Shown here in pieces: positions 4,310-63,821 of a DNA stretch of 64,000 nt; the first letter of the stretch is position 1, and each line of letters begins with the position of its first letter. Below the pieces are notes generated by a model. It was given only the letters and a program-made list of their open reading frames with translations. It was not told where the DNA came from and searched no databases. Position numbers and translations under genes: made by a program. Source of the DNA: Membranipora membranacea (taxonomy: Eukaryota > Bryozoa > Gymnolaemata > Cheilostomatida > Membraniporidae); NCBI GenBank assembly GCA_914767715.1, contig OU612074.1, positions 4,973,501-5,037,500 of the forward strand, written 5' to 3'.

Positions 4310-4528
4310 AATGTCCATTTATAGAAGATTTATTTTGTGAAATTATTAAAATACGAGTAATGAAGTCATCAGTGATGAAAAAAAAGACTAAGTAGTATTG
4401 CTTGATTTTTCAATTTAAATCTGTATTATGCAATTGTGAGGAAATCTGGTTAATATGTTACTCAGTAACTGTAGGAACATATGTTTCTCTACTTATTTTT
4501 TATCTGTTTCTGTATCTTCATCTGTGAC
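4310..4528 (-). other. A1 noncoding 3' terminal exon
   Basis: The minus strand has an acceptor ending TTTTAG at 4529-4530. The exon begins with a GAT/ACA-rich stretch (GTCACAGATGAAGATACAG) and an AATAAA signal lies at 4329-4334. The same layout recurs downstream of all eight family members. The 3' boundary is inferred as about 20 nt past the signal. Confidence 0.65.
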
Positions 4529-4837
4529 CTAAAATGAAAAATAATTTTGTCAGTGAAAAGGTCATCACAGTAAATGTCATACATGCGGACTTTTGTATCA
4601 AGCTGAACTAGTATTGGTACGTCACAACTAAGCAAAAGGTGAGTGAGCCATCAGATTTACACCTTCTGCATTTGCTGGCTACAATCTCTCTACTACTTGG
4701 TTTGAAAGCCATTTTTAAACATACTATAAGCTGTGTGATAGGAAGCAATCCAGAGTAACTTTTACACTGAGGCTGCTTATTGACTGTTTAAGTTAGCTAT
4801 TATTGTATATGCCCTTACAATGAATACGTGTACTTAC

Positions 4838-5536
4838 TTAAGTTGATTCTTGTGGTCTGCCTCCTCTTGGGCGACAATGGCAAGGGCGTCTCCCTGAGCC
4901 ATCTTCACCACCAGCTGGTCTATCACCACGGGGGCCTCCTCTTGGTCGACTGCCATCTCCACCTGCTCGTAGTCTTCTCTCTTCTCCAGTTCCCTCTCTG
5001 CCCTCCCTGCCAGCACCTCCTCTTTCTGCTCTCTTGGCTATCATTTCCTCCCTACTCATTGGTGCGTCTCCACTGTCAATGCGAGCTTGTCTTCTTTCTG
5101 CCATTGACTCCTTCATTGCAACCCTATCCACATTTCCGTCCTCATCTCTGATTATTTCAACTTGACCTCTTGGCCTGCATTTGCAAGGCCTCCTTCTTAC
5201 TTCTGAACCATCACCGTCAGCATCCTGGGCAATGCAGGCACCTGCAAATTAAGAGTGTATGATTATTAATTTCCAAATATCGTTAGAACTACTATTCAGA
5301 CACCTTAAAAATTTAAAAAAATGTGTTGTATCCTACCATAGAGAACAATTATTTTACAGCCTAAAATGTTAATTGATTATTTTTAATATGCCTAACAAAA
5401 GTTTTGAAATGCTTAAATCTATTTCTCAAGAAATAAAGACAAATTGTCTTGTTGCTTGCAAGATTTACTCAGCACATCTATGATTGTACTCACCAACAAC
5501 AACTGCGAAGAGAAGAGTGACCGTTAACTTGTTCAT
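4838..5536 (-). CDS. A1: secreted CxC Arg/Gly-rich protein, family unrecognised
   Basis: The coding exons are complement(5494..5536) and complement(4838..5241), giving 148 aa. The donor is G|GTGAGTA and the acceptor TTTGCAG|G; the phase-1 junction forms a Gly codon. The start is the only ATG joined to the conserved signal exon and is preceded by AAACC. Residues 1-19 form a hydrophobic signal peptide (MNKLTVTLLFAVVVG then ACIA), with likely cleavage before Gln20. The mature protein has an acidic Asp/Gly stretch, a first module RRRPCKCRPRG (Cys34, Cys36) and a charged helix-prone middle (about 52-80). A Gly/Arg/Glu-rich region with RGD at 119-121 follows, then a second module RRPCHCRPRG (Cys135, Cys137). 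The two modules look like duplicates. The TAA stop is flush with a GTAAGT donor, so a 3' UTR intron follows. No known family is recognised. It is the most diverged member of subfamily A. An extracellular role is inferred only from the signal peptide. Confidence 0.85.
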
Positions 5537-5693
5537 GGTTTCTACAAAAGTGAGTAAATGCAGCACTAAAGACATTTATTTAAACAAGGATAAAACTTTC
5601 AAAACAATATGTAACATAATAATAACATAGTTGCACTGTAGCTTCGAACATGTTAATTTTTTCATTTTTATTTAAGTCAAAATATAGGCTTAC

Positions 5694-5853
5694 CTGGCGA
5701 GTGTTTTTCTTTGGAATCTGTTCTGCTCTGTTCTGCTCTGTTCTGCTCTGTTCTGCTCTGTTCTGCTCTGTTCTGCTCTGTTTTGCTCTGCCCTGCTCTG
5801 TTCTGCTCTGGTCTGCTCTGTTCTACTCTGTTCTGCCCTGTTAGAAGATGTGT
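5694..5853 (-). other. A1 noncoding 5' exon
   Basis: A minus-strand donor GCCAG|GTAAGC lies at 5693-5694. The matching acceptor TTTTGTAG sits 5 nt before the ATG (exon 2 starts at 5541). The exon 5' end is inferred at about 30 nt from the TATA box. Most of this leader is the decamer repeat. Confidence 0.65.
5721..5840. repeat. Decamer tandem repeat, 12 units
   Basis: Twelve head-to-tail copies of TTCTGCTCTG (minus strand CAGAGCAGAA) with a few substitutions in the last six. It lies inside the transcribed 5' leader of A1. The same repeat has 5, 5 and 7 units in A2, A3 and A4. Confidence 0.95.
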
Positions 5854-5876
5854 GCCTATGTTTCATTGTGCCTTGA

Positions 5877-5884
5877 CTTTTATA
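5877..5884 (-). promoter_or_regulatory. A1 TATA box
   Basis: TATAAAAG lies within AGATTTACTATAAAAG, about 30 nt before the presumed leader exon. The surrounding sequence, including GGCACAATG downstream, is shared with the promoters of all family members. Confidence 0.8.
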
Positions 5885-5933
5885 GTAAATCTACCAACCT
5901 AGTGACGCTTATCAAATGTGGCGCACGTCCAAA

Positions 5934-5949
5934 CTTGTCACATGACAAG
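5934..5949. promoter_or_regulatory. Palindromic site upstream of A1
   Basis: CTTGTCA, two bases (CA), then TGACAAG forms a perfect 7-bp inverted repeat with a CACATG E-box core. It lies about 50 bp upstream of the TATA box. Copies A2-A4 keep the CACATGACAAG half at the same place. A binding role is inferred. Confidence 0.4.
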
Positions 5950-6990: not shown

Positions 6991-7004
6991 TACCACCATT
7001 TTAA

Positions 7005-11535: not shown

Positions 11536-12261
11536 TTAAGTTGATTCTGCTGTTTGGGGTCTGCCTCCTCTTGGTCGACAATGGCAACCTTGGCGTCTCT
11601 CTGAGCCATCTTCACCACCAGCTGGTCTATCACCACGGGGCCCTCCTCTTGGTCGACTGCCATCTCTACCTCCTGGTTGTCTTCTCTCTTCTCCAGTTCC
11701 CTCTCTGCCCTGCCTGCGAGCACCTATTCTTTCTGCTCTCTTGGCTATCATTTCCTCTCTACTCATTGGTACCTCTCCAGCGTCGATGCGAGCTTGTCTT
11801 CTTTCTGCTCTTGACTCTGCCATTGCATTCCTATCCACAAGTCCATCCTCACCTACGATTTTTTCAACTTGACCTCTTCCTCTACATTTGCAAGGCCTCC
11901 TTCTTACTTCTGAACCATCACCGTTAGGCTCCTGGGCGATGCAGGCACCTGCAAATTAAGAATAAGAATGTATTGTATGATTATCCATTTACAAATATCA
12001 TTTTTACTTCTATTCAGACACCTTAAAGTTTGAAAAAAATGTATTATATCCTACCATAGAAACCATGTTGAGTTAATTTACAGCCTCAAAGGTTAAATTA
12101 ATATTCCTTATTATGTGTAACTAAAGTTTTGAAATGTTTGAATCTATTTCCCATGAAATAAAGACAAATTTTCTTGTTGCTTGCAAGTTTTACTCAGCAC
12201 ATCTATGATTGTACTCACCAATAACAACTGCGAGGAGAAGAGTGACCGTTAACTTGTTCAT
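11536..12261 (-). CDS. A2: secreted CxC Arg/Gly-rich protein
   Basis: Coding exons are complement(12219..12261) and complement(11536..11948), giving 151 aa. The signal peptide starts MNKLTVTLLLAVVIG and probably ends at ACIA before Gln20. The mature chain has CKC at 34-36 within RRRPCKCRGRG, and a charged middle with an AESRAERRQARIDAGE stretch. RGD is at 119-121 and CHC at 136-138. Compared with A1 it gains three residues near the C terminus. The product is identical in sequence to A3, 5.6 kb away, so the duplication or a conversion event is recent. The TAA stop is immediately followed by GTAAGT, which places an intron in the 3' UTR. Function is unknown; secretion is inferred. Confidence 0.85.
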
Positions 12262-12419: not shown

Positions 12420-12508
12420 CTGGCGAGTGTTTTTCTTTAGAATCTGTTCTGCTCTGTTCTGCTCTGTCTGCTCTGTTCTGCTCTGTTCTGCTCTGTGAGA
12501 AGATGTGT
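12420..12508 (-). other. A2 noncoding 5' exon
   Basis: Donor CCAG|GTAAGC at 12419-12420. The acceptor TTTTGTAG lies at 12267-12268, 5 nt before the ATG. The start site is inferred from the TATA box. The exon contains the five-unit decamer tract. Confidence 0.6.
12447..12495. repeat. Decamer tandem repeat, 5 units
   Basis: TTCTGCTCTG repeated five times, with one unit shortened to nine bases. The A3 tract has exactly the same structure. Confidence 0.95.
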
Positions 12509-12531
12509 GCCTATGTTTCATTGTGCCTCGA

Positions 12532-12539
12532 CTTATATA
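12532..12539 (-). promoter_or_regulatory. A2 TATA box (TATATAAG)
   Basis: Same position as the A1 box but reading TATATAAG, inside the conserved AGATTTAC..AAGTC context. Confidence 0.7.
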
Positions 12540-12599
12540 GTAAATCTACCAACCTAGTGACGCTTATCAAATGTGGCACACGGCCAAATTTTTCACATG

Positions 12600-15500
12600 A
12601 CAAGGTAGAGTTAACTAGCATAATCCCATTATTCATGAGATTATGGTTTAGATAACTAGATAATCAGAATCTCAACAGTTTTCTGCACTGTCATTCTGAC
12701 GTAGGTTCGCAGAGATCAACGATGGAATAACAGCCTCATTATGCATCTACCTGTTACAAAAATAGAATTATGTGATTAGCATTAGCTGATCATTTAGCGG
12801 CTTATTATCTAGGAAGTCATACGTGTAACGTAAAAGTTTATTTATTATATATTTTTAGGCAGCGAAGGCACACCATGGCTTCGGCATGTTCACATAGACG
12901 CTTCTATTCACGCACTGATAATAAGTGCAACATGTCATAGAGACTAAGATTTTGAAAACCTTAGTTTTCCTGTAGTGATAAGCTTAGCTCAAACAGAGAG
13001 ACATGAATGATGGTTATGGCTTTCCTTTATCACTTGGTAGTTCTGCTCATGTTTAGTCCATGGCAATCTTGTGTTATCTTTCACTTCCAATCGGCGGAAT
13101 AGGGTGATTTTTTGAAAATAACATAGCAGCCAAAAAATGAATTGAGTTGATTGCAAAAAGTGACAAGTGGAATTGCTATGATGAATGTCATTTATATTTG
13201 AGGAACAGTTGAAAGCTGCTGTAATATTTCGTTTTGCTATCATATTGGAAACATTCTTTGATACAGTATTTCATGATGAAAGGATTGTGTAAAAACATGC
13301 ATCAATTATTTGTGGCTTGGCAGATACTTTTTGAATATTGTGTGAAATCAACTAATCAACTGGAAACTAGTAAAAATAAGAAACGAGAGCCTTACAAGTT
13401 ATTGAATCAAAGCCTTGTGACTTCTGCGCAGCATTTATAATTGTAGTTTAATCAGCGACAGAATTCAGTTATCCTGTATTGATGTATTGCAGTATACCGC
13501 AAAATTCAATGGCTGTAACTCTCAACATCAAAACCAACAGTATTACAAGCAGGATATTTGGCTTCTTCTTACACCAGATGGGCGGAAATTTTCAGCATCG
13601 TTCTTATGAAAAACTTTTGAAGGACAACATTATGAATGGCGTGATGAATTAAAGCACAGATTAAAGAATAATTATAACTAAATTTACTTTTAGTGCGTCA
13701 TGAAAGATTTATGTGGCACTGCTCGTCAGGTTTATTTTGATATACGTAATCATTCACATAGACTTTAACAAGGCATCACTTATAGACATATGGATCTGGC
13801 AAAAATGAATTAGACATTCTTAATGACTATAATCCTTTTAGATATTCACAATAAATATCACCCTCATCTTGTGTTCATTTTTAAGCAATTTAATTTCCTG
13901 TCAGAACTTGTGGAGACAAATGAGACAGCAATGAAATTTGTTAGGATCAAAAGTGAACCAAGAATGAGAGCACAGCACAGCTCTGATTTACAATATGAAA
14001 AGAACTATATTTGTTTTTTGTCAGTAAGAGTCATAGTCCGAGCTGGAATGAAGCAAACACTTCTTGTTGATATATACTTGTAGTCAGTGAGGGCCTGATA
14101 AGTGTCGAATGCGAATGCGATCGACATAATGTATGCATTGGTGTTTCCATTGTATAGCGACATTTTCTTGCCCTGCTGTGATCAGCCTGTATTCAGTGTT
14201 CTCAAGATGAGGGTATATCAGGCGTAGGCAGTGTATTTGGTATTTGTATAATCTCTTCTTGTCTATTTTATTCAGCTGCTGACACCAACATACAATTATA
14301 TTCTACATACAATTATACATTACATACAATTATATATTATATACAATAATATAATATACAATTATATAATATATACAATTATATAATATATACAATTATT
14401 TAATATATTAAATACAATTATAAATAATACACAATTATATCCAATGTACAATTATATATATTATACCACAATTTTAACATGCTTGTTGTGCGAGAGGCCC
14501 AACCGAGTTCGAATCCCGGTGAAGACAGATTTCATTTACATATATATCATCTCTTTTACTACTTAGGAGTAGGAGGTGGCTCAGTTGGTTAGAGCGCCGG
14601 ACTTCAACACGCAAGTGTTGAAGGTCGTGGGTTCGAATCCTACTGCAGTCTATCTTCTACTGGGGATTGGTTGGCCCCCAGGTGTGCTCCGACCTGCCTG
14701 CAAACTGAGAGCAAATTGGCGCAGATATTGCGGCCTTGCCATTAAGGCATTAATATTTCGCCGCCAATGCGCGGGATGGGCGAGTGATATGCCACCGGAT
14801 TTTAATCAACCTTTTAATCAACCTACTTGGTGGTTTAACTTGTTTTGTTTTCGTACCCATTTATTGCTACTTACGCCCACTGCATCATTAAATTTAACCA
14901 CCGGCATTATTTCGCACTGAGCTTTGCAAGCTTAAGCGACCCAGCGTGGCTGAGCGGTGGGAGTGTTTGATCTCAGCCCAAGTTAAAATTCTGGTGAGGC
15001 CAGATTAAAAAAGCAAAAAGAGAGCATGGGGAGGAGCCGTTATTTATATAAAAATGTAAATATACCACAATTATAACATTTGTGGGCCCATCCTTCATCA
15101 TAATTGCTGGATTTTGGCCATGAATTATGTGTAAAACTCACAAAGTACTAACATAATAATTGAGATAATCTTAATCGATCATATGTGGAAACTTGTGCAT
15201 ACAAACGGTTGGGTTAAAAGCAGCATCATAAAAGATCGCTCTGCAAATAGTGAATAATTACAGTTATGAGGCCTGAGTCCCTGGTTTGAAGCTTTAATAT
15301 TTAGTGTCTGAAAAAATGGGTACAACAACATAATGGACTAACAAAATGAATACTGCCACACGAAAGAATTGTTAAAGAAGTTCGTAGCTGTAATCAAATT
15401 GTATGAGAATCGTCTTCGATCACTTGAAGATAATGGCTTAAACTGTGTCAAACACCAGCAAAAAAATGACTTGATCCTTACAATTGAACAAGGACATTCA

Positions 15501-16611: not shown

Positions 16612-16812
16612 ATGTCCATTTATGGAAGATTTATTTTGTGGATTTATCAGTGAAGTAAAAAAGACAACTGGCTAAGGAGTATCGCTTTAATTTTCAATTT
16701 AAATTTGTATTATGCAATCGTGAGGAAATCTGGTTGATATGCCACTCTGTAACTGTAGGAACATCTGTTTCTGTATTTTTTTTGTATCTGTTTTTGTATC
16801 TTCATCTGTATC
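16612..16812 (-). other. A3 noncoding 3' terminal exon
   Basis: Acceptor CACTTTAG at 16813-16814, GATACAGATGAAGATAC exon start and AATAAA at 16630-16635, as in A2. Confidence 0.65.
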
Positions 16813-17121: not shown

Positions 17122-17847
17122 TTAAGTTGATTCTGCTGTTTGGGGTCTGCCTCCTCTTGGTCGACAATGGCAACCTTGGCGTCTCTCTGAGCCATCTTCA
17201 CCACCAGCTGGTCTATCACCACGGGGCCCTCCTCTTGGTCGACTGCCATCTCTACCTCCTGGTTGTCTTCTCTCTTCTCCAGTTCCCTCTCTGCCCTGCC
17301 TGCGAGCACCTATTCTTTCTGCTCTCTTGGCTATCATTTCCTCTCTACTCATTGGTACCTCTCCAGCGTCGATGCGAGCTTGTCTTCTTTCTGCTCTTGA
17401 CTCTGCCATTGCATTCCTATCCACAAGTCCATCCTCACCTACGATTTTTTCAACTTGACCTCTTCCTCTACATTTGCAAGGCCTCCTTCTTACTTCTGAA
17501 CCATCACCGTTAGGCTCCTGGGCGATGCAGGCACCTGCAAATTAAGAATAAGAATGTATTGTATGATTATCCATTTACAAATATCATTTTTACTTCTATT
17601 CAGACACCTTAAAGTTTGAAAAAAATGTATTATATCCTACCATAGAAACCATGTTGAGTTAATTTACAGCCTCAAAGGTTAAATTAATATTCCTTATTAT
17701 GTGTAACTAAAGTTTTGAAATGTTTGAATCTATTTCCCATGAAATAAAGACAAATTTTCTTGTTGCTTGCAAGTTTTACTCAGCACATCTATGATTGTAC
17801 TCACCAATAACAACTGCGAGGAGAAGAGTGACCGTTAACTTGTTCAT
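17122..17847 (-). CDS. A3: secreted CxC Arg/Gly-rich protein, identical to A2
   Basis: Coding exons are complement(17805..17847) and complement(17122..17534), giving 151 aa. All features match A2: signal peptide to about residue 19, Cys34/Cys36, RGD at 119-121, Cys136/Cys138, and a stop codon abutting a GTAAGT donor. The amino acid sequence is identical to A2. The visible differences lie outside the coding region, notably one base in the TATA box. This is a recent duplicate or a converted copy. Function is unknown. Confidence 0.85.
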
Positions 17848-18005
17848 GGTTTCTACAAAAGTGAGTAAATGCAGCACTAAAGACATTTATTTAAACAAGG
17901 ATAAAACTTTCAAAACAATATGTAACATAATAATAACATAGTTGCACTACAGCTTCGAACATGTTAATTGTTTTCTTTTTTATTTCAGTCAAAATATAGG
18001 CTTAC

Positions 18006-18092
18006 CTGGCGAGTGTTTTTCTTTAGAATCTGTTCTGCTCTGTTCTGCTCTGTCTGCTCTGTTCTGCTCTGTTCTGCTCTGTGAGAAGATGT
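18006..18092 (-). other. A3 noncoding 5' exon
   Basis: Same donor and acceptor arrangement as A2; the next exon starts at 17852. The start site is inferred. Confidence 0.6.
18033..18081. repeat. Decamer tandem repeat, 5 units
   Basis: Same five-unit tract, with the same nine-base unit, as in A2. Confidence 0.95.
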
Positions 18093-18117
18093 GTGCCTAT
18101 GTTTCATTGTGCCTCGA

Positions 18118-18123
18118 CTTATA
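18118..18123 (-). promoter_or_regulatory. A3 altered TATA box
   Basis: Reads TTTATAAG where A2 has TATATAAG. This is a single-base change in the core promoter of a gene whose product is identical to A2. Confidence 0.6.
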
Positions 18124-18189
18124 AAGTAAATCTACCAACCTAGTGACGCTTATCAAATGTGGCACACGGCCAAATTTTTCACATGACAA

Positions 18190-21100
18190 GGTAGAGTTAA
18201 CTAGCATAATCCCATTATTCATGAGATTATGGTTTAGATAACTAGATAATCAGAATCTCAACAGTTTTCTGCACTGTCATTCTGACGTAGGTTCGCAGAG
18301 ATCAACGATGGAATAACAGCCTCATTATGCATCTACCTGTTACAAAAATAGAATTATGTGATTAGCATTAGCTGATCATTTAGCGGCTTATTATCTAGGA
18401 AGTCATACGTGTAACGTAAAAGTTTATTTATAATATATTTTTAGGCAGCGAAGGCACACCATGGCTTCGGCATGTTCACATAGACGCTTTTATTCATGCA
18501 CTGATAATAAGTGCAACATGTCATAGAGACTAAGATTTTGAAAACCTTAGTTTTCCTGTAGTGATAAGCTTAGCTCAAACAGAGAGACATGAATGATGGT
18601 TATGGCTTTCCTTTATCACTTGGTAGTTCTGCTCATGTTTAGTCCATGGCAATCTTGTGTTATCTTTCACTTCCAATCGGCGGAATAGGGTGATTTTTTG
18701 AAAATAACATAGCAGCCAAAAAATGAATTGAGTTGATTGCAAAAAGTGACAAGTGGAATTGCTATGATGAATGTCATTTATATTTGAGGAACAGTTGAAA
18801 GCTGCTGTAATATTTTGTTTTGCTATCATATTGGAAACATTCTTTGATACAGTATTTCATGATGAAAGGATTGTGTAAAAACATGCATCAATTATTTGTG
18901 GCTTGGCAGATACTTTTTGAATATTGTGTGAAATCAACTAATCAACTGGAAACTAGTAAAAATAAGAAACGAGATCCTTACAAGTTATTGAATCAAAGCC
19001 TTGTGACTTCTGCGCAGCATTTATAATTGTAGTTTAATCAGCGACAGAATTCAGTTATCCTGTATTGATGTATTGCAGTATACCGCAAAATTCAATGGCT
19101 GTAACTCTCAACATCAAAACCTACAGTATTACAAGCAGGATATTTGGCTTCTTCTTACACCAGATGGGCGGAAATTTGCAGCATCGTTCTCATGAAAAAC
19201 TTTTGAAGGACAACATTATGAATGGCTTGATGAATTAAAGCACAGAGTAAAGAATAATTATAACTAAATTTACTTTTAGTGCGTCATGAAAGATTTATGT
19301 GGCACTGCTCTTCAGGTTTATTTTGATATACGTAATCATTCACATAGACTTTAACAAGGCATCACTTATAGACATATGGATCTGGCAAAAATGAATTAGA
19401 CATTCTTAATGACTATAATCCTTTTAGATATTCACAATAAATATCACCCTCATCTTGTGTTCATTTTTAAGCAATTTAATTTCCTGTCAGAACTTGTGGA
19501 GACAAATGAGACAGCAATGAAATTTGTTAGGATCAAAAGTGAACCAAGAATTAGAGCACAGCACAGCTCTGATTTACAATATGAAAAGAACTATATTTGT
19601 TTTTTGTCAGTAAGAGTCATAGTCCGAGCTGGAATGAAGCAAACACTTCTTGTTGATATATACTTGTAGTCAGTGAGGGCCTGATAAGTGTCGAATGCGA
19701 ATGCGATCGACATAATGTATGCATTGGTGTTTCCATTGTATAGCGACATTTTCTTGCCCTGCTGTGATCAGCCTGTATTCAGTGTTCTCAAGATGAGGGT
19801 ATATCAGGCGTAGGCAGTGTATTTGGTATTTGTATAATCTCTTCTTGTCTATTTTATTCAGCTGCTGACACCAACATACAACTATATTCTACATACAATT
19901 ATACATTACATACAATTATATATTATATACAATAATATAATATACAATTATATAATATATACAATTATTTAATATATTAAATACAATTATAAATAATACA
20001 CAATTATATCCAATGTACAATTATATATATTATACCACAATTTTAACATGCTTGTTGTGCGAGAGGCCCAACCGAGTTCGAATCCCGGTGAAGACAGATT
20101 TCATTTACATATATATCATCTCTTTTACTACTTAGGAGTAGGAGGTGGCTCAGTTGGTTAGAGCGCCGGACTTCAACACGCAAGTGTTGAAGGTCGTGGG
20201 TTCGAATCCCACTGCAGTCTATCTTCTACTGGGGATTGGTTGGCCCCCAGGTGTGCTCCGACCTGCCTGCAAACTAAGAGCAAATTGGCGCAGATATTGC
20301 GGCCTTGCCATTAAGGCATTAATATTTCGCCGCCCATGCCTCGGGATGGGCGAGTGATATGCCACCGGATTTTAATCAACCTTTTAATCAACCTACTTGG
20401 TGGTTTAACTTGTTTTGTTTTCGTACCCATTTATTGCTACTTACACCCACTGCATCATTAAATTTAACCACCGGCATTATTTCGCACTGAGCTTGACGCT
20501 TAAGCGACCCAGCGTGGCTGAGCGGTGGGAGTGTTTGATCTCAGCCCAAGTTAAAATTCCGGTGAGGCCAGATTAAAAAAGCAAAAAGAGAGCATGGGGA
20601 GGAGCCGTTATTTATATAAAAATGTAAATATACCACAATTATAACATTTGTGGGCCCATCCTTCATCATAATGGCTGGATTTTGGCCATGAATTATGTGT
20701 AAAACTCACAAAGTACTAACATAATAATTGAGATAATCTTAATCGATCATATGTGGAAACTTGTGCATACAAACGGTTGGGTTAAAAGCAGCATCATAAA
20801 AGATCGCTCTGCAAATAGTGAATAATTACAGTTATGAGGCCTGAGTCCTTGGTTTGAAGCTTTAATATTTAGTGTCTGAAAAAATGGGTACACCAACATA
20901 ATGGACTAACAAAATGAATACTGCCACACGAAAGAATTGTTAAAGAAGTTCGTAGCTGTAATCAAATTGTATGAGAATCGTCTTCGATCACTTGAAGATT
21001 ATGGCTTAAACTGTGTCAAACACCAGTAAAAAAATGACTTGATCCTTACAATTGAACAAGGACATTCACAAATATCAAGTGGAAAACTGAATCTGAAATG

Positions 21101-22690: not shown

Positions 22691-23415
22691 TTAAGTTGAT
22701 TCTGCTGTTTGGGGTCTGCCTCCTCTTGGTCGACAATGGCAACCTTGGCGTCTCCCTGAGCCATCTTCACCACCAGCTGGTCTATCACCACGGGGCCCTC
22801 CTCTTGGTCGACTGCCATCTCCACCTCTTCGCTGGTTTCTCTCTTCTCCAGTTCCCTCTCTGCCGTCCATGCGAGCACCTCTTCTTTCCGCTCTCTTGGC
22901 CATCTTTTCCTCTCTACTCATTGGTACCTCTCCAGCGTCGATGCGAGCTTGTCTTCTTTCTGCTCTTGACTCTGCCATTGCATTCCTATCCACAAGTCCA
23001 TCCTCACCTACGATTTTTTCAACTTGACCTCTTCCTCTACATTTGCAAGGCCTCCTTCTTACTTCTGAACCATCACCGTTAGGCTCCTGGGCGATGCAGG
23101 CACCTGCAAATTAAGAATAAGAATGTATTGTATGATTATCCATTTACAAAAATCATTTTTACTTCTATTCACATACCTTAAAGTTTGAAAAAAATGTATT
23201 ATATTCTACCATAGAAACCATGTTGAGTTAATTTACAGCCTCAAAGGTTAAATGAATATTCCTTATTATGTGTAACCAAAGTTTTGAAATGTTTGAATCT
23301 ATTTCCAAGAAATAAAGACAAATTTGCTTGTTGCTGGCAAGTTTTACTCAGCACATCTATGATTGTACTCACCAATAACAACTGCGAGGAGAAGAGTGAC
23401 CGTTAACTTGTTCAT
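22691..23415 (-). CDS. A4: secreted CxC Arg/Gly-rich protein
   Basis: Coding exons are complement(23373..23415) and complement(22691..23103), giving 151 aa. The signal exon and residues 1-79 match A2/A3. Differences cluster in the middle, with changes such as EEKMAKRAERRGARMDG and NQRRGGD, while the CxC modules (34-36, 136-138) and RGD (119-121) are kept. The stop is flush with GTAAGT. The unequal distribution of change, with fixed ends and a drifting centre, is the pattern seen across the whole family. Function is unknown. Confidence 0.85.
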
Positions 23416-23573: not shown

Positions 23574-23682
23574 CTGGCGAGTGTTTTTCTTTAGAATCTG
23601 TTCTGCTCTGTTCTGCTCTGTCTGCTCTGTTCTGCTCTGTTCTGCTCTGTTCTGCTCTGTTCTGCTCTGTTAGAAGATGTGT
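23574..23682 (-). other. A4 noncoding 5' exon
   Basis: Donor CCAG|GTAAGC at 23573-23574 and acceptor TTTTGTAG before the signal exon. The start site is inferred from the TATA box. Confidence 0.6.
23601..23669. repeat. Decamer tandem repeat, 7 units
   Basis: TTCTGCTCTG repeated seven times. The third unit has the same one-base deletion as in A2/A3, showing common descent followed by expansion or loss. Confidence 0.95.
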
Positions 23683-23705: not shown

Positions 23706-23713
23706 CTTTTATA
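23706..23713 (-). promoter_or_regulatory. A4 TATA box
   Basis: TATAAAAG in the conserved family context, as in A1. Confidence 0.75.
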
Positions 23714-24420
23714 GTAAATCTACCAACCTAGTGATGCTTGACAAATGTGGCCCTAATCCACATTTGTCACATGACAAGTTAGATTTAACTCGCATCATCC
23801 CATCATTCATGAGATTATGGTTTAGATAACTAGATAATCACAATCTAAACAGTTTTCTGCATTGTCATTCTGACGTAGGTTCGCAGAGCTCAATGATGGA
23901 TTAACAGCCTCATTATGCATCTACCTGTTACAAAAATAGAAATATGTGATAAGCATTAGCTGATCTTTTAGCGGCCTATTAATTACGGAAATTTTAAGTA
24001 GAATGTAAAAGTTTATTTACAATCCATTTCAGCAACGAAGGCACACCATGACATCGGCACGTTCACATAGCAGATTTTATTCATGCACTGATAATAAGTG
24101 CATTATGTCATAGAGACCAAGATCTGGAAAACCTTAGTTTTCCAGTAATGATAAGCTTAGCTTAAACAGATAGACATGAATTATGGTTATGGCTTTCCTT
24201 TATCACTTTGTAGTTCTGCAAATGTTTATTCCATGGCAATCTTGCGCTCTCTTTCACTTACATCTAAATAATTGGCAGAATAGGGTTATTTAAAAAAAAT
24301 AACATAGCAGCCGTCAAATCTATCGCTTTTGAGTTGATTGCAAAAAGTAAGCAAGTGGAATTGCTATGTTGCATATCATTTATATTGGAGGGACTGTTAA
24401 AAGCTGCTGCAACAGTCAGG

Positions 24421-36545: not shown

Positions 36546-37358
36546 TTAAGTTGATTCTTCTGTCTCGTTTCTTTCACCTCTTGGGCGACACTGGCACTTT
36601 GGTCGTTGCTGTCCGCCCTCTCTTGTTGATCCTGTTTTCTCACCATCCACTTGTCCCTCTCCTCTTTGTGGTCGTCTCCTTCCACCTTCTCCTTGTCCTT
36701 GTCCTTGTCCTTGTCCCTCACCTTCACCTTGCTGTCTTCTCCCCTGTCCTTTTGGTCCTCGTCCCTCTCCCTGTCCATCCCCATTAAGTGGCCTTCTTCT
36801 CTCTCCCTCGCCTCCCTCTTCTCTAGGTGGTCCTCTTCTTCCACCCTCTCCTTGTCCATCTCTGCCCCCTCTTGGTGGTCCTCTTCTCTCTCCTCCACCT
36901 TGCCCCTCTCCAATTTCTCCATCTCTCATTGGTTTTTCTCCCTTGAACATTCTATGTAATGGCCCTTCTCCACACCGGCAACCCATTCTTTTATCTACTT
37001 GGGGAACAATTTCACCGTCAACAGCACCATCAACATTGCCCCCACTTTGTGCGATGCAGGCACCTAAAATATTCAGAAGCAGAAATAATGGATCACTTGC
37101 TTACAAAACCAAAGCTGTATTAGTGTACAATCTGCTAATTATGAAAATGACAATGGAATTTAATGTTTTAATATCACCTCTTATATTAACTTCCACGCTA
37201 GCGACTCACAGGATAAGGGAATTTTCAAGTTTACAGAATGAATTGACTAACCCCGAACCAAAGAGTCAATAAATGATTTTGTTGATTTCCACAGGTATCT
37301 TTACAATGTACTCACCAACTACTACTGCGAAGAGAAGAGTGATTGTTAACTTGTTCAT
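36546..37358 (-). CDS. B5: longest CxC Arg/Gly/Glu-rich secreted protein
   Basis: Coding exons are complement(37316..37358) and complement(36546..37063), giving 186 aa. The signal peptide is MNKLTITLLFAVVVG then ACIA. Mature Gln20 is followed by an acidic GNVDGAVDGE stretch and a dibasic Lys-Arg at 39-40. Next come CRC at 43-45, a conserved GPLHRMF.GEKP block, and a long variable region with RRGPPRG repeats and a Gly-Gln run (about 131-139). CQC is at 171-173. Where B6 and B8 have RGD, this copy has no RGD (an Asn-Gly-Asp occurs at 108-110). A second frame of this exon is also open but does not join the signal exon. Function is unknown. Confidence 0.85.
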
Positions 37359-37441: not shown

Positions 37442-37449
37442 CATTTATA
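37442..37449 (-). promoter_or_regulatory. B5 TATA box (TATAAATG)
   Basis: Lies 91 bp before the ATG in the family AGATTTACTATAAA context. The B leader is short and has no decamer repeat. Confidence 0.75.
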
Positions 37450-37459
37450 GTAAATCTGG

Positions 37460-41764: not shown

Positions 41765-42360
41765 TTAAGTTGATTCTGCTGTCTCGGTTTTTCCACCTCT
41801 ACGGCGACATTGGCATTTTGGTCGTCGTTGGCCATCCTCTCTTGGTGAGCCTGTTCTCTCACCATCTCCTTGTCCCTCTCCTCTTTGTGGTCGTCTTCTT
41901 TCACCCTCTCCCTGTCTTCTTTCTCCCTCTCTCTCTCCTTGTCCGTCCCCTCTTGCCCCTCCTCTTCTTCTGCCTTCTCCTTGTCCATCCCTGCCTCCTC
42001 TTGGTGGTCCTCTTCTCTCTCCCTCACCTCGCCCCTCGCCCATTTCTCCATCAGCCATCGGTTTTTCTCCGTTGAACATTCGACTTAATGGCCCTTTTCC
42101 ACATCGGCAACGCATTCTTCCATCTTCCTGGGCCTCAATTTCACCATCAACAGCACCATCAACATCGCCATCACTTTGTGCGATACAAGCACCTGATATG
42201 GAAGAAATAAAAATAATGGTTTAAATCTTCTCTAAAACTTGAATTTTGAAATTCTCAAAGCCAAAAAGTCAATAAATGGATGTGTTGTTTACTCAGGTAT
42301 CTTTACAATGTACTCACCAACTATAACTGCGAAGAGAAGAGTGATTGTTAACTTGTTCAT
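41765..42360 (-). CDS. B6: CxC Arg/Gly/Glu-rich secreted protein
   Basis: Coding exons are complement(42318..42360) and complement(41765..42192), giving 156 aa. The intron is only 125 bp, the shortest in the family. The signal peptide is MNKLTITLLFAVIVG then ACIA. Mature features are acidic 20-38, CRC at 43-45, conserved GPLSRMFNGEKP (48-59), RRGPPRG at 74-80, RGD at 95-97 and CQC at 141-143, ending in a short Thr/Ser tail. It is shorter than B5 through loss of whole codons in the central repeats. Function is unknown. Confidence 0.85.
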
Positions 42361-42443: not shown

Positions 42444-42451
42444 CTTTTATA
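42444..42451 (-). promoter_or_regulatory. B6 TATA box
   Basis: TATAAAAG, 91 bp before the ATG. It is followed by GCAGG as in B7, B8 and (with changes) subfamily A. Confidence 0.8.
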
Positions 42452-42479
42452 GTAAATCTGTCATCCAAATGTAGCTCAT

Positions 42480-43332: not shown

Positions 43333-43376
<44 letters not shown>

Positions 43377-45340
43377 TATATATATTTCAAATGGGATAGA
43401 GTGTTTTCTAATATTGTTATATTATTTAGTAAACCAAAGCAGGAGTCCTTTTTATTTCACACTATTTAAAGTAGTTTCTGCAAACATTTGGTTAGGTAAA
43501 GCGACTAATAAATTAAAGCTATGTTTTTATCCTCGTAATAACAAATTTTGCATTTGTTACCATAAAACATCAAACCATTTACCTTTGTGAATGGCTATTC
43601 AAGACAGTTTTCCAATCAAACCAAAATCTTTCAAGACAATAATTGAAGGTAACTCATAGCAAAGGCCTCAGATTAAATCTAAAACCTAAACCAACGATAA
43701 ACCTTAGTTCTAAAATTGGATACCATTAAATCGGCTATCTATGTGTAGCATGACAGACAAGCTGGGAATCCTTCATAAACGCTCTCAAAATAGCCTACAT
43801 CCAGGATCTGATTCCTAATCCTGATGCTCATTTATTTCTCGTAATGCAACAATAATGTGCACAAGTGCGTCATCAGAGATTAATGCCATTTACTATCTTG
43901 TCATTCAATAAGAAATATATTCTGCGTTATCTTAGCTGGTTAACTAAGGCACCTTTAATTATTGAAGATGTTGATAATTATTTATGATTCAAACTTTCAG
44001 AAAAATAGTGAATAAAATGGCATGAAATAAACGGCGTTTGCACCTCCCACTAACTGTATTTCTCTCTAATCACTATATAAGGTATTTATAGCTTATTAGC
44101 ACAGAGATGGTGATACAGGTCACAGATAGCCTTTAGTATTTGTAATTAAAATTTAGGATTTTTTAAGGTGACTCTAAATTAAGATATAACATGATCTGAA
44201 CAAAGAAGATTTACACAATGAAATTCTCCCTCACTGCACATATTTTGAATGAGATCAAACTGATTGTGTTCCTATGTCAATATTAAAGACCTGAGTACCG
44301 ATGCCTTAAACGTTTTGTGGGTATGATAAAATTTGTGTCATACTTAAACACACATGTGACAGACTCCTATCTAAGTCGTCCAAAGTGTCATTCTGATGGC
44401 TTGCTTGACTGCAACCCTTCTTCTAAACAGGTAAATTTGAGTGTGCCGGTGTAGATTTTGCAGAAATTGTTATATATTATGGGAATATCCTGATGGCTTT
44501 CTTATTATAGTTGGAAGCTTGAGATGATTATGATAATCCTCAATGACGTATTTCAATACATTATTAGTACAGATAAATGCTATTTTTAGAGCTCTGATGT
44601 AGGTTTTCTAGTTATAATGCTGAGATAATGATTTAAGGCTAGTATTATGATCTTCAAATTATAAGTCGATATGAAAGGGCAAAATTTGAATGGCTTGATA
44701 ATTTGTTTTGACCATAATTGCTGAAGTTTGAGGTGAACGGGATGACTTTCATCTAACAGGATGGTGTGATTATGTTCAGTGAAATAGGATTGAATAATAA
44801 TTTGAAAGGAAATGTATTCATGGAGTAAACTTGAATCAATGTCTTCTTCTGAATTTCGGAAAGAAACCGGCTAAATTTCGAATTTCTCAAGGAGAATACA
44901 TAACTTCAAAGATGCTCACAAGGCCTGCTGTTTTCACAACTCGAATCTTCAAAGCAGTGGTCTATCTAAATAGATGTTTAATCTTATCCAAACTAACATC
45001 GGTTGCTAGGTTCAATGGTTTGGGAGTATGTATCAAGACATCTGTTGGTGTCAAATTCAGTCCTGTATTTTGTTAATAAAAAATTAGTCGGTGGCACACA
45101 TCATGTTGCGAACAATAAATGTTTTCTACATTCCCACAGAGAACTCTATAACATCAGCACATGTGCAGAGATTAGGCTAGATAATAGAAAATAGGAATAC
45201 ATATCTCATAGTTGGCATGGTAAGAAATGTGGCCATACACCCTAATTGTATTACTATGAGCATGTTATATTTTTAATGTTCAATCCTATCGGGAATTTCA
45301 AAAAGGTGTTATTATTTTTCAGGTAGCATTGAAAACAAAG
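42480..45340. repeat. B6-B7 spacer, left part
   Basis: No supported gene. It duplicates the B5 upstream flank. A long TA microsatellite occupies 43339-43385. Sequence at 44040-44520 matches 39360-40020. Confidence 0.6.
43339..43385. repeat. (TA)n microsatellite
   Basis: About 45 bp of alternating TA; the shorter homologue is at 38350-38370. Confidence 0.95.
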
Positions 45341-45354
45341 TTGTTCTGTTCGAA

Positions 45355-46660
45355 GATCTTCATCAATATATCCGAATATCCAAAATGAAATCTCACCTAG
45401 CAGAAGTACTTAACGCTAATCAATATGCCTACCAACAGATACTCAGTACCACCGATGCAATACTGCAGTTGATAGATGACTGGACATCCGTTCTGGACTC
45501 AAATACTAATGTGAAACTAATACAAAATGCATGCCTTGATTTTTCCAAAGCCTTCGATAGGATGCAGCACCCCATGCTGATATATAAAATGAATCATCTT
45601 GGTTTTAATGCTAATGTCATTGCCTTAGTAGAAAGTTTTTTGGAGTCAAGACAAACATGTGTAAAATACTGTGATAATTTTTCTGACTACTAACCCATTC
45701 AAGTAGGTGCCCCTCAAGGAACCAAACTGGGCCCCATCCTTTGGCTAATTTATGTTGATGACTTAAAATCTTTTGATTATGATACAAAATGTATCAAATA
45801 TGCTGATGATACAACCTTTTATAAGCTTATCATTGATCTATCCACTGAGAACATATCTGATGCAATACTGTTAGCAAACACCTGGTCTGAGCAAAACAAC
45901 ATGATTTTGAATTCCAGCAAAACTGTGATACTGAATGTAGCTTTTACAAACAAACCTGCTATGTACCTTCGTATATCCTATGGAGATGATAGCCTCTATA
46001 TCTCTCCCTCTGAGCATACCAAGGTTTTAGGCGTATTCATAGACAACACACTAACTTTCAGCAATCATGTTGACTATATTATATCTAAATGCTCTCAACG
46101 ATTATACTTGATGAGACTGCTAAAATGCATGGGCATGGATAGTGATAGCCTCAGAACCTTCTATATAGCTAACATTAAGTCTATAATCGCCTACGCTGCA
46201 TGGTATAATCTACTATCAGACACCGATAAAACACGACTCAAGAGGATCCAGCGCTCTGCTGCTCGGATTGTGCTGCCATTCTCTGACAACTACGAGCAGA
46301 GGCTGGATCTCTGAGCACTGCCACCCATCACAACATTCCTGCACACCACTTGCAGTGAACATTTCACTAGAATAGCTGACAACGATAATCACCCCTTGAA
46401 CTCTCGTATTAAAATAAACTCAAACAGAACATCTGCTCGTAGAGCAAAAATAGATAAATATAGGCCATCCAAGTGTAAAACAACCAAAAGACAATAATAC
46501 CTTTTTTGAATTTTATATGCGATTTTTTAACTAATGCAGCTCAGACTCCTTTTATTTTTATTTTCCCATGTATGTGCTGTACATTCGATGCTATCAACCT
46601 ATCACAGGATGGATATTAGAATTTAGGCAATAAACAAACTTCAAACTTCAAACTTCAATC
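45355..46660 (+). pseudogene. Degenerate LINE reverse transcriptase
   Basis: One reading frame runs from about 45385 to 46496. It shows reverse transcriptase landmarks in order: DFSKAFD, APQGTKLGP, catalytic YADD at 45799-45810, then a KVLGVFID block and a C-terminal LKRIQRSAARIV segment. Two in-frame stops (45691-45693, 46312-46314) break it. It is 5'-truncated with no endonuclease domain. The 3' end is CAATAAAC followed by repeats of AAACTTC (46637-46656), a CR1/Jockey-like tail. It lies downstream of B7; the paralogous site at about 34305-34325 is empty. Confidence 0.85.
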
Positions 46661-48072: not shown

Positions 48073-48749
48073 TTAAGCTGAGTTTTCTGTCTCGGCTCTT
48101 TCACCTCTTGGGCGACATTGGCACTTTGGTCGTCTTTCTCCATTCTCTCTTTGTGGTCTCTCACCATCTCCTTGTCCCTCTCCTCTTGGTGGTCCTCTTC
48201 TTCCTCCTTCTCCCTCTCTTTGTCCCCCTCTGTTCCCTCCTCGTGGTCCTCTCCTTCCTCCCTCTCCTAGTTCCTCACCCTCCCCTCTTTGGCCGCCTCT
48301 TCTTCCACCTTCTCCTTGTCCATCCCTGCCCCCTCTTGGTGGTCCTCTTCTCTCTCCCTCAACTCGCCCCTCTCCCATTTCTCCATCAGCCATTGGTTTT
48401 TCTCCGTTGAACATTCGACTTAATGGCCCTTTTCCACATCGGCAACGCATTCTTCTATCTTCTTGGGCATCAATTTCACCATCAACAGCACCATCAACAT
48501 TGCCATCATTTTGTGCAATACAGGCACCTGAAATAAAAGAAAATAGAAGTAATAATGGTTTAAAAATTCAATGGTAATGTATTAATATCACCTGTTGAAT
48601 CTAGGCGATTCACAGAATGTTTGTGAATTTTGAAATTGTCAAACCGAAACCATGAAGTCAATAAATGGGTTTGTTGATTACTCAGGTATCTTTACAATGT
48701 ACTCACCAACTACAACTGCGAAGAGGAGAATGACTGTTAACTTGTTCAT
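48073..48749 (-). CDS. B7: CxC Arg/Gly/Glu-rich secreted protein without RGD
   Basis: Coding exons are complement(48707..48749) and complement(48073..48527), giving 165 aa. The signal peptide is MNKLTVILLFAVVVG then ACIA. Mature features are an acidic lead, CRC at 43-45, GPLSRMFNGEKP, and two separated RRGPPRG repeats (74-80 and 124-130). A copy-specific central segment GEELGEGGRRGPRGGNRGG follows, with CQC at 150-152 in a CRPRG context like subfamily A. The RGD of B6/B8 is replaced by RGE. Function is unknown. Confidence 0.85.
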
Positions 48750-48833: not shown

Positions 48834-48841
48834 CTTTTATA
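48834..48841 (-). promoter_or_regulatory. B7 TATA box
   Basis: TATAAAAG, 92 bp before the ATG, same context as B6. Confidence 0.8.
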
Positions 48842-48859
48842 GTAAATCTGTCAACCAGA

Positions 48860-55378: not shown

Positions 55379-56205
55379 GGATGGATGGATTTTATTACTA
55401 TCACTGACAGCATTATTAAAAGAAAAAAATGAGTCGCGAAATACAGTGTAATTGCTGGCACTTTGAATCAGCAAGAAAAAGCGAAGACACTTGGAATAAA
55501 AAAATCAAATCTCTGTCTAAAAAAGTATTTCGTTTAAAATAAGAGTGATATGACGCAGAAAACAGTCTCTCCCCAGTGAGCTTTTATGTTTTACTGTACG
55601 GTATCTGCCAGATGGACATTTACTCAACAAATCATTGATGAAATGATCCTCATCGTGAATATAGCGTAAGGCCAGTGTTCGTGTCTGATTGTCCATCATG
55701 GTATAAATATCAGGATGTTCAATGCCTAACTTAATAGCGTCTTTGAAAATTTTACACAGGCGTTGCTTGTCAGCAGCATACAAGCTTTTAAAAATAATGG
55801 GTAAGCAATAGGAGATTCGTGATACAATAAAACTTTTAAAAAGCATATTTGATAGTGATTTAGAGCTTAAAAATACAAAATTCCTGACTACATACATCCT
55901 TTGAGAGGCGGTTGAAACTATACCATGCACATGATCATTAAAACGCAGCTTATCGTCAACTAGTACACCAAGATATTTAACTTTATCACTAAAAGCAAAA
56001 GCAGTATCATTTAAAACAAGTGTAGGGGTAGAAGGTTTAATATATTGGGTGGATAGCATCATTTCCTGGGTCTTAGTAGGGTTTAATAAAAGATTTAAAT
56101 CAGCACATTGTTTAGCAATTCTATGGATTTCATCAAAATAGGAGTTGAGATCTGATTGATTAGCTATGCAGCCTATGATGCAAGTGTCATCTGCAAATCA
56201 ACTCG
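55379..56205 (-). pseudogene. LINE reverse transcriptase 3' fragment
   Basis: A minus-strand frame opens at about 56205 with the catalytic FADD motif (56186-56197). It continues through NPTKTQEMM, a KYLGVLVDDKLRF block and a C-terminal thumb-like region, ending at 55517. No in-frame stop interrupts it. Everything upstream of FADD is missing. The 3' end carries AATAAAATCCATCCATCC, a short-repeat tail typical of CR1-type elements. It is a different subfamily from the LINE at 45.4 kb. Confidence 0.8.
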
Positions 56206-61640: not shown

Positions 61641-62490
61641 AATATTTAGAGATAGGATATCAGTCTCGAATTATTAGTCTTTAAGAAAACAACTCTGAAT
61701 GACAAAATAGTTAAGAAATTGTAAAACTTGCACCAAAGCTCTCAAAATAACATTCACCAATCTTTTTATCACATGTCATGTCTTTGATAGCCAATAAAAA
61801 GTGTATACATGTCATGTTTAATCCATGTCATTTTATGAACATTATCAGCTGCAACCATTGAGGATTATCATTACCACCAAAACTTTCCATGTAATATAAT
61901 TCTGTAATTTACTCAATATACCTGTTTACATGCAATCGTACTAAGACACTGTGTCAATATATAATACTTTTAATCATTTCTTTCATTTGAATTTACATCA
62001 AAAGCCTAATATACTCGTGTTATACCACATATTGGTGTTATTGAGCACATCTCTTTGGTAATATGGTCAAAATCCAGTTGGATTTTTTAATCATGAAATT
62101 AAAACTAGTTATACAAATTAAAAGATTTGAGATGTAAGATTTTCCAAAGACCAACAATGTGCTATGAGATGGTAACATTTTCTTGCTTGTATAATAGCTG
62201 GGAATCAACTGTGATCTAGTGCAGGGTTGCTTGATGAAAATGTTGTTTTAACTGTCAACTCCTTGACTATATCTAAAGAAGGTAACGTTAAACAGCCTAC
62301 AAGGGTTGGCAAGCCAAAACAAAGTTACATATTTTTCTTACAGCTTAGAGTTTGAGGTTTTATTATCTAGCCTAATCTGTATGCATGTTGGGATTATATA
62401 AAGTACTCTGTTTGCATATTGAGAACAAGTTGTGTTGGATCTTCTTTATAACATAGTGATGACATAATTGTTGAACATGATAATACCTCA
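61640..62490. repeat. B-type downstream flank of B8
   Basis: Matches 34.5-35.9, 40.5-41.2 and 46.9-47.5 kb in order. It marks the resumption of the B unit after the interruption at 51-61.6 kb. Confidence 0.6.
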
Positions 62491-62497
62491 GAAGTCA

Positions 62498-62782
62498 GTT
62501 TCAATTTACATAATGTTTATTTTATGATCATTTGAAAAAGCAAGCAGAGAGAAAAACATGTATTACTACGTATCACATATAGATGAATACCACAAATTTG
62601 TTTCCAAACTGTGACAATTCAATGGCCGGATTTGATAAATATAATATGTCTCAAATTTAGAAACAGAACTTCAATATTTTGATTAACGTGGTGATATGTG
62701 AGTAACCTTCGCATCTCTCTCTGTGCCAATATCCATGTCGCTAATTGCTGGCAGTGTCTTCATCATTGTCTATCGTTGTCTC
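62498..62782 (-). other. B8 noncoding 3' terminal exon
   Basis: Acceptor TTCTTTCAG at 62783-62785, exon start GAGACAACGATAGACAATG and AATAAA at 62516-62521. The donor GTAAGT begins at 63070. Confidence 0.65.
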
Positions 62783-63078
62783 CTGAAAGAATTAAACGAA
62801 ACTTTCACCAATATGCATAGTTGTAAAGCGAATAAATATTGATAAGAATCAGCAACAGATTGGGCGGGTACATAATCCAGCCTCCACTCAATAAAAAACA
62901 GCCAGTGTGCTATTTGGCGACAGGAATGAATGAATTCTCTAGCCTGATTTTTGAGAATCAACCAGCTTGAGGTTTGTCTACCAAGCTACCATGTTTTCAT
63001 ACCTTTTGTGAACTTGTTCTCCAAATCGGTATTGTTCTGGCCTGAATTTTAATTTTAAGTATAAACTTACATGCTTAC

Positions 63079-63730
63079 TTAAGCTGATTCTTCTGTCTCG
63101 GTTCTTCCACCTCTTCGGCGACATTTACACTTTTGTTGTCGCTGTCCATCCTCTCTCGGTGGTCCTGTTCTCTCACCATCTCCTTGTCCCTCTCCTCTTG
63201 GTGGTCCTCTTCTTCCACCCTCTCCCTCTCCCTGTCTCCTTCCTCCCTCTCTCTCTCCTTGTCCGTCCCCTCTTGCCCCTCCTCTTCTTCCGCCTTCTCC
63301 TTGTCCATCTCTGCCCCCTCTTGGTGGTCCTCTTCTCTCTCCCTCACCATGCCCCTCTCCAATTTCTCCATCAGCTATTGGTTTTTCTCCGTTGAACATT
63401 CTATGCAATGGCCCTTTTCCACATCGGCAACGCATTCTTCCATCTTCCTGGGCCTCAATTTCACCATCAACAGCACCATCAACATCGCCATCACTTTGTG
63501 CGATACAGGCACCTTGGATAAAAGAAAAAAAATTTAGAAAAGAATGAAAATTAAAAATGAGAAAAAATTGAATAAAACTTGAATGGTAATGTTTTCATAT
63601 TGTTTGTGAATTTCGAAATGGTCAAACCCAAACCATAGTCAATAAACGGGTTTCTTGATTACTCAGGTATCTTGACAATGTACTCACCAACTACAACTGC
63701 GAAGAGAAGAGTGATTGTTAACTTGTTCAT
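63079..63730 (-). CDS. B8: CxC Arg/Gly/Glu-rich secreted protein
   Basis: Coding exons are complement(63688..63730) and complement(63079..63512), giving 158 aa. The acceptor is AAG rather than the CAG/TAG of the other copies. The signal peptide is MNKLTITLLFAVVVG then ACIA. Mature features are an acidic lead identical to B6, CRC at 43-45, GPLHRMFNGEKP, RRGPPRG twice (74-80 and 115-121), RGD at 95-97 and CKC at 143-145. It is closest to B6 although 21 kb away, which is more similar than its neighbour B7. Function is unknown. Confidence 0.85.
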
Positions 63731-63813
63731 GATTCCTGTATACTAGTGGTCTCTCTATATTCTGTTGGATGCTTAGCTAGAAGCTGTGTACCTTACAATC
63801 TATTGTGCCCTGC

Positions 63814-63821
63814 CTTTTATA
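63814..63821 (-). promoter_or_regulatory. B8 TATA box
   Basis: TATAAAAG, 91 bp before the ATG, in family context with one change just upstream (AATATAAAAG instead of CTATAAAAG). The remaining bases to the window end match other B upstream flanks. Confidence 0.8.

Follow-up and report, generated by a model that had tools for sequence, protein, structure and literature searches.

What is made by a tight cluster of related genes on chromosome 10 of the sea mat Membranipora membranacea, a marine bryozoan? In the 64,000-nucleotide stretch of DNA that we analysed (the window), the cluster appears as eight genes with two coding exons each, all on the minus strand (4 type I and 4 type II; Table 1), in keeping with the eight-member, one-strand family of the original prediction. 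Beyond the window that description no longer fits: the full array holds 20 gene models, one of them doubtful, on both strands of 157 kb (C10:4955232-5112586), arranged as three neighbouring subfamilies (types I, II and III, with 7, 5 and 8 members), and a broken relic of the family lies 0.23 Mb from it. The copy-number expansion that had been proposed is supported.

The multigene family in the window is confirmed as real and not a product of chance, since a search with a single type II protein found its best paralogue at E 7.6e-72 (the row at E 3.0e-85 is the query's own gene), exon-2 indels stay in frame, and g2-g4 form tandem units of ~5.6 kb, among which g2 and g3 (12.3 and 17.8 kb) encode an identical protein. 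Segmental duplication is extensive, with 45 repeat pairs of at least 900 bp in the 264 kb examined (longest 8.1 kb, 96.6%). Each window gene has a leader exon of 43 nt, a predicted GTGAGT donor (8/8), a predicted AG acceptor (8/8; weak in g8) and a second exon that is open to a TAA, giving precursors of 148-186 aa. The eight intact two-exon genes, consistent splicing signals and secretion signal described earlier were all recovered, the last as a signal-like leader; the family proteins are small and probably secreted.

Table 1. Gene features of the window (window coordinates); the noncoding features are predicted from sequence only.
Feature	Position	Strand	Remark
g1 (type I) exon 1, leader	5494..5536	-	ATG at 5536
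g1 exon 2 + stop	4838..5241	-	148-aa precursor
g1 TATA block (ATTTACTATAAAA)	5878..5890	-	
g2 (type I) exon 1, leader	12219..12261	-	ATG at 12261
g2 exon 2 + stop	11536..11948	-	151 aa; same protein as g3
g2 TATA block	12533..12545	-	
g3 (type I) exon 1, leader	17805..17847	-	ATG at 17847
g3 exon 2 + stop	17122..17534	-	151 aa
g3 TATA block	18119..18131	-	
g4 (type I) exon 1, leader	23373..23415	-	ATG at 23415
g4 exon 2 + stop	22691..23103	-	151 aa
g4 TATA block	23707..23719	-	
g5 (type II) exon 1, leader	37316..37358	-	ATG at 37358
g5 exon 2 + stop	36546..37063	-	186 aa
g5 TATA block	37443..37455	-	
g6 (type II) exon 1, leader	42318..42360	-	ATG at 42360
g6 exon 2 + stop	41765..42192	-	156 aa
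g6 TATA block	42445..42457	-	
g7 (type II) exon 1, leader	48707..48749	-	ATG at 48749
g7 exon 2 + stop	48073..48527	-	165 aa
g7 TATA block	48835..48847	-	
g8 (type II) exon 1, leader	63688..63730	-	ATG at 63730
g8 exon 2 + stop	63079..63512	-	158 aa; CCAAG acceptor weak
g8 TATA block	63815..63827	-	
5' noncoding intron of g3 (example)	17853..18005	-	predicted
5' noncoding intron donors of g1, g2, g4	5693, 12419, 23573	-	predicted
3' noncoding exon of g3	16630..16812	-	predicted; acceptor to AATAAA
Counterparts of g3's 3' exon, starts	4528, 11226, 22381, 36209, 41482, 47826, 62782	-	predicted

A TATA block lies upstream of all 20 models (19 were found by pattern), including all eight window genes, for which a common core promoter had been proposed. 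Searching the whole genome with a 21-base promoter pattern, allowing up to 3 mismatches, returned 29 sites (12 at array genes, 1 at the relic and 16 elsewhere) and 16 for the reversed control; no more than 12 of the 20 array genes are thus picked up by the pattern. One outside site, on C9, adjoins what by eye is a helicase-like reading frame, and was read as chance. A noncoding 5' exon is predicted in type I copies 2-7 and in all 8 type III copies (the 5'-exon donors of copies 13 and 15 are weak; copy 1 gives no clear reading) and in none of the 5 type II copies, where the distance from TATA block to ATG is ~100 nt vs. 207-356 nt in the others. In some copies, translation of the predicted 3' exon gives an Asp/Thr-rich peptide. 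A third coding exon was rejected because, by eye, the stop falls 0-8 nt before a donor in 20/20 models and the frame joins inconsistently; the exon is provisionally taken as noncoding. The common poly(A) exon of the original prediction held in part: 7 of the 8 window genes have an AATAAA within 600 nt after their predicted 3' exon, and none was seen within that distance for the 37.3-kb gene (g5). Two tRNA-like matches in the window, without a clear anticodon, were read as SINE remnants, and Rfam at the gathering score gave no match there.

Comparison of the copies points to coding constraint on exon 2, where 24/24 indels are multiples of three vs. 10/46 in introns (counted in 12 chosen, non-independent pairs). 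Changes at the three codon positions number 152, 142 and 210. Exon 2 is also open in some antisense frames; we retained the stated one since it continues from the leader exon, contains no stop in 20/20 models and varies most at third positions. Whole-CDS dN/dS was 0.28-0.50 in type II (5 of 10 pairs measured) and 0.6-1.9 in type I (6 of 21 pairs measured), the latter suggesting that constraint is weak or selection diversifying, which would also suit an immune effector. For 8 of the 20 measured pairs, dN in the C-terminal segment (~16 codons) exceeded that of the middle. The tail after the second cysteine pair is 13 residues long in 19/20 models and 11 in the remaining one; its length is kept, but its sequence is not.

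The mature chains are simple. Exactly four cysteines are present in each of the 20 models, as two Cys-x-Cys pairs placed 79-135 residues apart. Pooled over the 20 mature chains, the residues are G 26%, R 19%, E 13%, P 8%, D 6.5% and Q 6%. Both the Cys-x-Cys near each end (8/8 window genes) and the Arg/Gly/Glu-rich composition had been foreseen. With few hydrophobic residues and a charged fraction of 0.37-0.52, the chains are charge-balanced (every model has a net charge per residue between -0.02 and +0.07), a feature absent from the original prediction, and the charges along the middles are not segregated: 18 of the 20 middles fall below the shuffled mean. This mixing is not strong: no middle is extreme, and even the best stands at 38 of 500 shuffles. 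AlphaFold models of two chains (one type II chain and g2) are mostly of low confidence, with a mean pLDDT of 47 for the type II chain; since the model of g2, a type I chain, contains a helical hairpin (pLDDT 70-90 over 40 residues; pTM 0.28), not every chain appears to be fully disordered. The helical stretch looked EF-hand-like by eye, and was rejected as such on the lack of a Pfam match for a type I protein. Foldseek against the PDB gave three weak matches to the type I model (best E 3.0), a result that says little because the pTM of the model is 0.28.

Database searches were consistent with the earlier statement that the proteins match no known family, within the libraries covered. Pfam returned no match for 2 proteins at E<=1, and only five stray one-member matches (E 0.14-0.97) for 11 members; NCBIfam, a bacterial and archaeal library, had none for 3 proteins, and neither one protein nor an 11-member profile matched the PDB at E<=10. 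A protein library whose bryozoan coverage is uncertain gave no hit either to a single type I protein (E<=1, 967 candidates) or to the 11-member alignment (E<=0.1, 7,988 candidates scored). Among the literature matches listed, no paper dealt with such a bryozoan family, which is weak evidence of absence.

The reading we favour, tentatively and at somewhat less than an even chance, is that these genes encode secreted polyampholyte chains with cysteine-bearing ends, which cross-link to build a coat, gel or matrix outside the cells. Gene structure, the signal-like leader, cysteine layout, charge balance, duplication history and coding constraint can be read from the sequence; expression, secretion, cross-linking, tissue and function are inferred, as are the immune, mucus and matrix roles that the original prediction put forward on the same footing. 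Each gene would yield a chain with a leader; the mature chain is nearly neutral, a polyampholyte in which Arg is balanced by Glu and Asp and spaced by Gly, Pro and Gln, and one Cys-x-Cys near each end would provide reactive ends. Many copies may be expressed by one secretory tissue from the common TATA promoter type; the end cysteines would then form disulfides (or share a common metal) between chains, and the charge-balanced middles would, by polymer principles, stay hydrated in sea water, giving the colony an extracellular coat, gel or matrix. The length of the middle varies by repeat gain and loss, with end cysteine spacing and tail length nearly fixed. As a counterpoint to cross-linking, a Cys-x-Cys pair could close on itself. 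A more specific version, which we consider unlikely as it stands, is that the family is an undescribed secreted structural protein, a charge-neutral Arg/Glu polyampholyte bearing one cysteine pair towards either end and acting as a naturally end-linking chain for a salt-tolerant, fouling-resistant hydrogel coat, its chain length set by repeat number across ~20 clustered genes. If true, the sea mat would make a simple polymer, the natural equivalent of man-made polyampholyte hydrogels, to which PMC10385034 ascribes antifouling properties.

The main rival is that the proteins are diversified immune effectors acting like the sea urchin Transformer (Trf, formerly 185/333) proteins, i.e., secreted disordered binders of microbial surfaces that vary by duplication and by repeat-unit change in exon 2, which we regard as possible and, on balance, unlikely. 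According to PMC5491942 and PMC8634487, Trf genes are small and clustered, have a leader exon and one coding effector exon, lie in segmental duplications, and encode a disordered, Gly-rich product with internal repeats. The sea mat array is alike in its conserved leader exon and variable effector exon, its tight cluster with segmental duplications, and its Gly/Arg-rich product with variable internal repeats, modelled as largely disordered; the type I dN/dS values and an RGD in 14/20 chains also agree. The excess of RGDs (19 in total vs. ~9 expected from shuffles) is weak, however, because the copies are related, and the Trf order of Gly-rich, RGD and His-rich regions is not seen, with Gly at 26% and His at only 0.8% of pooled residues. 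Moreover, no GA/GAT flanks occur among the 32 tandem-repeat rows of the window (score at least 60). The likeness is one of plan only, as the original prediction stated. Unlike Trf, the bryozoan array has a charge-balanced Arg/Glu middle and predicted extra noncoding exons; its two Cys-x-Cys modules would also set it apart if, as the original prediction states, Trf proteins differ in cysteine content.

Less probable is that the chains belong to the organic matrix of the calcified zooid wall. The host's walls are calcified (PMC10290214), and among mineral matrix proteins, according to PMC4336488, disordered secreted chains of low complexity encoded by duplicated genes are common, but the near-zero net charge per residue is not strongly acidic. 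We think it improbable that they are precursors of antimicrobial peptides, or multi-peptide hormone precursors, processed at basic pairs: each chain has 2-9 such pairs, the 7 type I chains have the strong net positive charge of a cationic antimicrobial precursor (+5 to +9) and the 5 type II chains carry an acidic N arm (-2 to -6), yet the 13 type II and III chains lack that charge (-3 to +3), a furin-like R-x-[KR]-R site occurs in just 1/20 chains, and no repeated peptide with constant cut sites was seen. That both Cys-x-Cys pairs jointly hold one metal ion would account for the four mature cysteines in 20/20 models; as disulfides are favoured along the oxidising secretory route, and no metallothionein match was found in Pfam, we hold this very improbable.

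If the proposal of cross-linked polyampholyte chains is correct, the array would be a lophotrochozoan leader-plus-effector cluster growing by segmental duplication, to be set beside the echinoid Trf genes. The chains resemble neither mucins, which have Ser/Thr-rich repeats (Ser 2.6% + Thr 2.0% = 4.6% pooled here), nor the Tyr-rich DOPA-type marine adhesives, as Tyr is absent from all 20 mature chains. Metallothioneins share the Cys-x-Cys motifs, whereas the sea mat chains have a signal-like leader, only four mature cysteines and a long spacer. The vertebrate SCPP cluster is similar in encoding secreted disordered proteins, growing by tandem duplication and keeping the leader on its own exon, but its products are acidic and phosphorylated, in contrast to the near neutral to basic, Ser-poor chains described here. 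Proteins of the vertebrate epidermal differentiation complex (involucrin, SPRRs) are cross-linked at the body surface, largely by transglutaminase; compared by description only, they are not Arg/Glu polyampholytes, yet they share with the sea mat family clustered genes, a noncoding first exon (predicted in the sea mat), conserved ends around a variable repeat middle and, as we propose for the sea mat, a cross-linked surface product.

All eight genes of the window were found on the minus strand, each with a 43-nt leader exon (as read from the sequence), a GTGAGT donor, an AG acceptor, an intron of 125–270 nt and a second exon whose open frame ends in TAA (precursors: 148–186 aa), as expected from the original prediction of eight intact two-coding-exon genes. 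Protein identity was 82–100% among the four lower-coordinate genes (type I), two of which encode an identical protein, 74–90% among the four higher-coordinate genes (type II), and 48–54% between the two types. The prediction of an eight-member, one-strand family stands inside the window, which spans positions 4,973,501–5,037,500 of chromosome 10 (C10); beyond it, the family extends to 20 gene models on both strands (C10: 4,955,232–5,112,586). These were modelled by examining 200 kb of the window's flanks, with 19 leader exons recognized by pattern and the 20th by tblastn. Along the chromosome the 20 models fall into three adjoining blocks of 7 type I, 5 type II and 8 type III genes (support in an unrooted tree: 100/99, 86/85 and 99/99, respectively), the plus-strand genes being the last type II and 5 of the 8 type III genes. 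The predicted copy-number expansion is borne out by these models. Repeats of ≥900 bp make up 45 pairs, the longest of which measures 8.1 kb, with 96.6% identity. Copy 20 is doubtful: it carries a 7-bp duplication at the exon-1 donor, such that the better donor, if used, would shift the frame, and Cys17 is absent.

The genome searched comprised 339,339,785 bases in 18 contigs (C1: 41,072,641; C10: 24,422,204); since the published total is slightly larger (339,374,674 bp, 21 scaffolds), some minor pieces are absent from this version. A type II protein gave at least 14 matches inside and outside the window (a lower bound; 12 candidates scored) and a type I protein gave 8, including a broken copy at 4.72 Mb; all were on chromosome 10, and with queries of these two types remote relatives may be missed. 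In the broken copy, a type I relic, the promoter, the leader exon and a portion of exon 2 survive; both Cys-x-Cys (CxC) modules are lost, and ~1.6 kb of unmatched DNA separates the promoter from the leader.

A TATA block like ATTTACTATAAAA lies upstream of all 20 genes (19 by pattern; copy 8 separately). Genome-wide, a 21-base version with ≤3 mismatches found 29 sites (12 array genes, the relic and 16 elsewhere) vs. 16 for the reversed control, such that the excess equals the family sites; the remaining 8 array genes exceed 3 mismatches. A noncoding 5′ exon is predicted for type I copies 2–7 and the type III copies, while the five type II genes have only ~100 nt from TATA to ATG, as if the 5′ intron had been lost. 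A 3′ noncoding exon is also predicted downstream of the stop; ACAGA-type repeats abound in it, and in several copies one of its frames would translate to an Asp/Thr-rich peptide. The tRNA-like sequences, which lie near a 167-nt repeat, are perhaps SINEs.

Other features of the window (bare coordinates) and of chromosome 10 (C10)
Feature	Position	Strand	Remarks
TCTGTTCTGC 10-mer array, variable length	5717-5842, 12443-12496, 18029-18082, 23597-23671		predicted noncoding 5′ exon, all four window type I genes
Predicted 3′ noncoding exon	4334-4528 and counterparts
tRNA-like sequences	14557-14651, 20126-20220		within tandem unit; anticodon not clear
167-nt repeat	14659, 20228; further copies 57621, 58561
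Retrotransposon-remnant-like frame	45277-46314		RVT_1, E 3e-6, 27.5 bits (cut-off 29.6)
Retrotransposon-remnant-like frame	55517-56197		profile scan matched nothing
Type I relic	C10:4719501-4722713
Open frame, signal-like stretch (by eye), long Gly/His repeats (GGGGHI units)	C10:5128137-5128784	+	~15 kb past array; nothing in Pfam at E≤0.01
Several similar transporter-like frames (by eye)	C10:5145492-5175071		right of array

Indel lengths were multiples of three in 24 of 24 exon-2 cases vs. 10 of 46 intronic ones (Fisher p = 4e-11; 12 chosen, non-independent pairs), and substitutions at codon positions 1, 2 and 3 numbered 152, 142 and 210, the third being highest by a modest margin. Whole-CDS dN/dS, measured in 20 of 59 within-type pairs, was 0.28–0.50 for type II (5 pairs), 0.6–1.9 for type I (6 pairs) and 0.2–1.9 for type III (9 pairs); both values close to 1.9 come from nearly identical pairs. 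On these comparisons, type II looks to be under constraint, and type I evolves almost neutrally or under diversification. The segment that begins at the second CxC and runs to the C-terminus is not the best-conserved part: in 8 of 20 pairs its dN was higher than for the middle.

We took signal cleavage to precede Gln20 (our reading, made with no program), giving mature chains of 116–178 residues; a cut after Gly15 would retain Cys17, present in 19 of 20 chains. With Gln20 as the first residue, each mature chain contains four Cys arranged in two CxC pairs 79–135 residues apart, and in 19 of 20 a 13-residue tail follows. Charged residues make up 37–52%, with a net charge per residue of −0.02 to +0.07 (pooled composition: G 26%, R 19%, E 13%, P 8%, D 6.5%, Q 6%, K 3%, no Tyr), a composition that supports disorder. 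AlphaFold modelled one chain of type II at a mean pLDDT of 47 and one of type I at 54, by itself weak evidence of disorder because the alignments comprised eight sequences; the type I model contains a helical hairpin within 40 residues at pLDDT 70–90, and Foldseek with this model returned nothing at E≤0.001. The family is thus far without known relatives: none appeared in Pfam, NCBIfam, PDB or the protein library searched, and no paper on such a family was among the matches listed in literature searches. Neighbors beyond the array (to its left, frames matching Kelch and NHL; to its right, the one transporter-like frame scanned, with MFS_1 at E 6e-8 and 32.4 bits, just below the curated cut-off of 33.4) give no hint of function.

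Taken together, the family is real and larger than first noted, with probably secreted products; its gene structure is well supported by sequence, and for its function we infer the following. The CxC pairs hold their position near the ends, and the middle reads as soluble, with charges that balance overall and a length that is free to vary; a polymer that links by its ends is laid out in this way. Chains would be joined to one another through their CxC ends by disulfide (or metal) linkage, the most likely product being a coat, gel or matrix outside the cells. Poor fits are mucins (Ser+Thr 4.6%), DOPA adhesives, given the lack of Tyr, and, in the case of types II and III, antimicrobial peptides of the cationic kind (net charge −3 to +3).

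A different reading is an immune effector like those of the sea urchin Transformer (Trf, 185/333) genes, which the original prediction had likened to this family in plan. Two Trf features were looked for and not found: the His-rich region, in the sea-mat chains, and the GA/GAT flanks, among the tandem repeats of the window. The likeness itself holds for the gene plan and, in addition, for the evolution of type I; because both of these fit, the Trf-like reading is a plausible alternative to that of an end-linked matrix.
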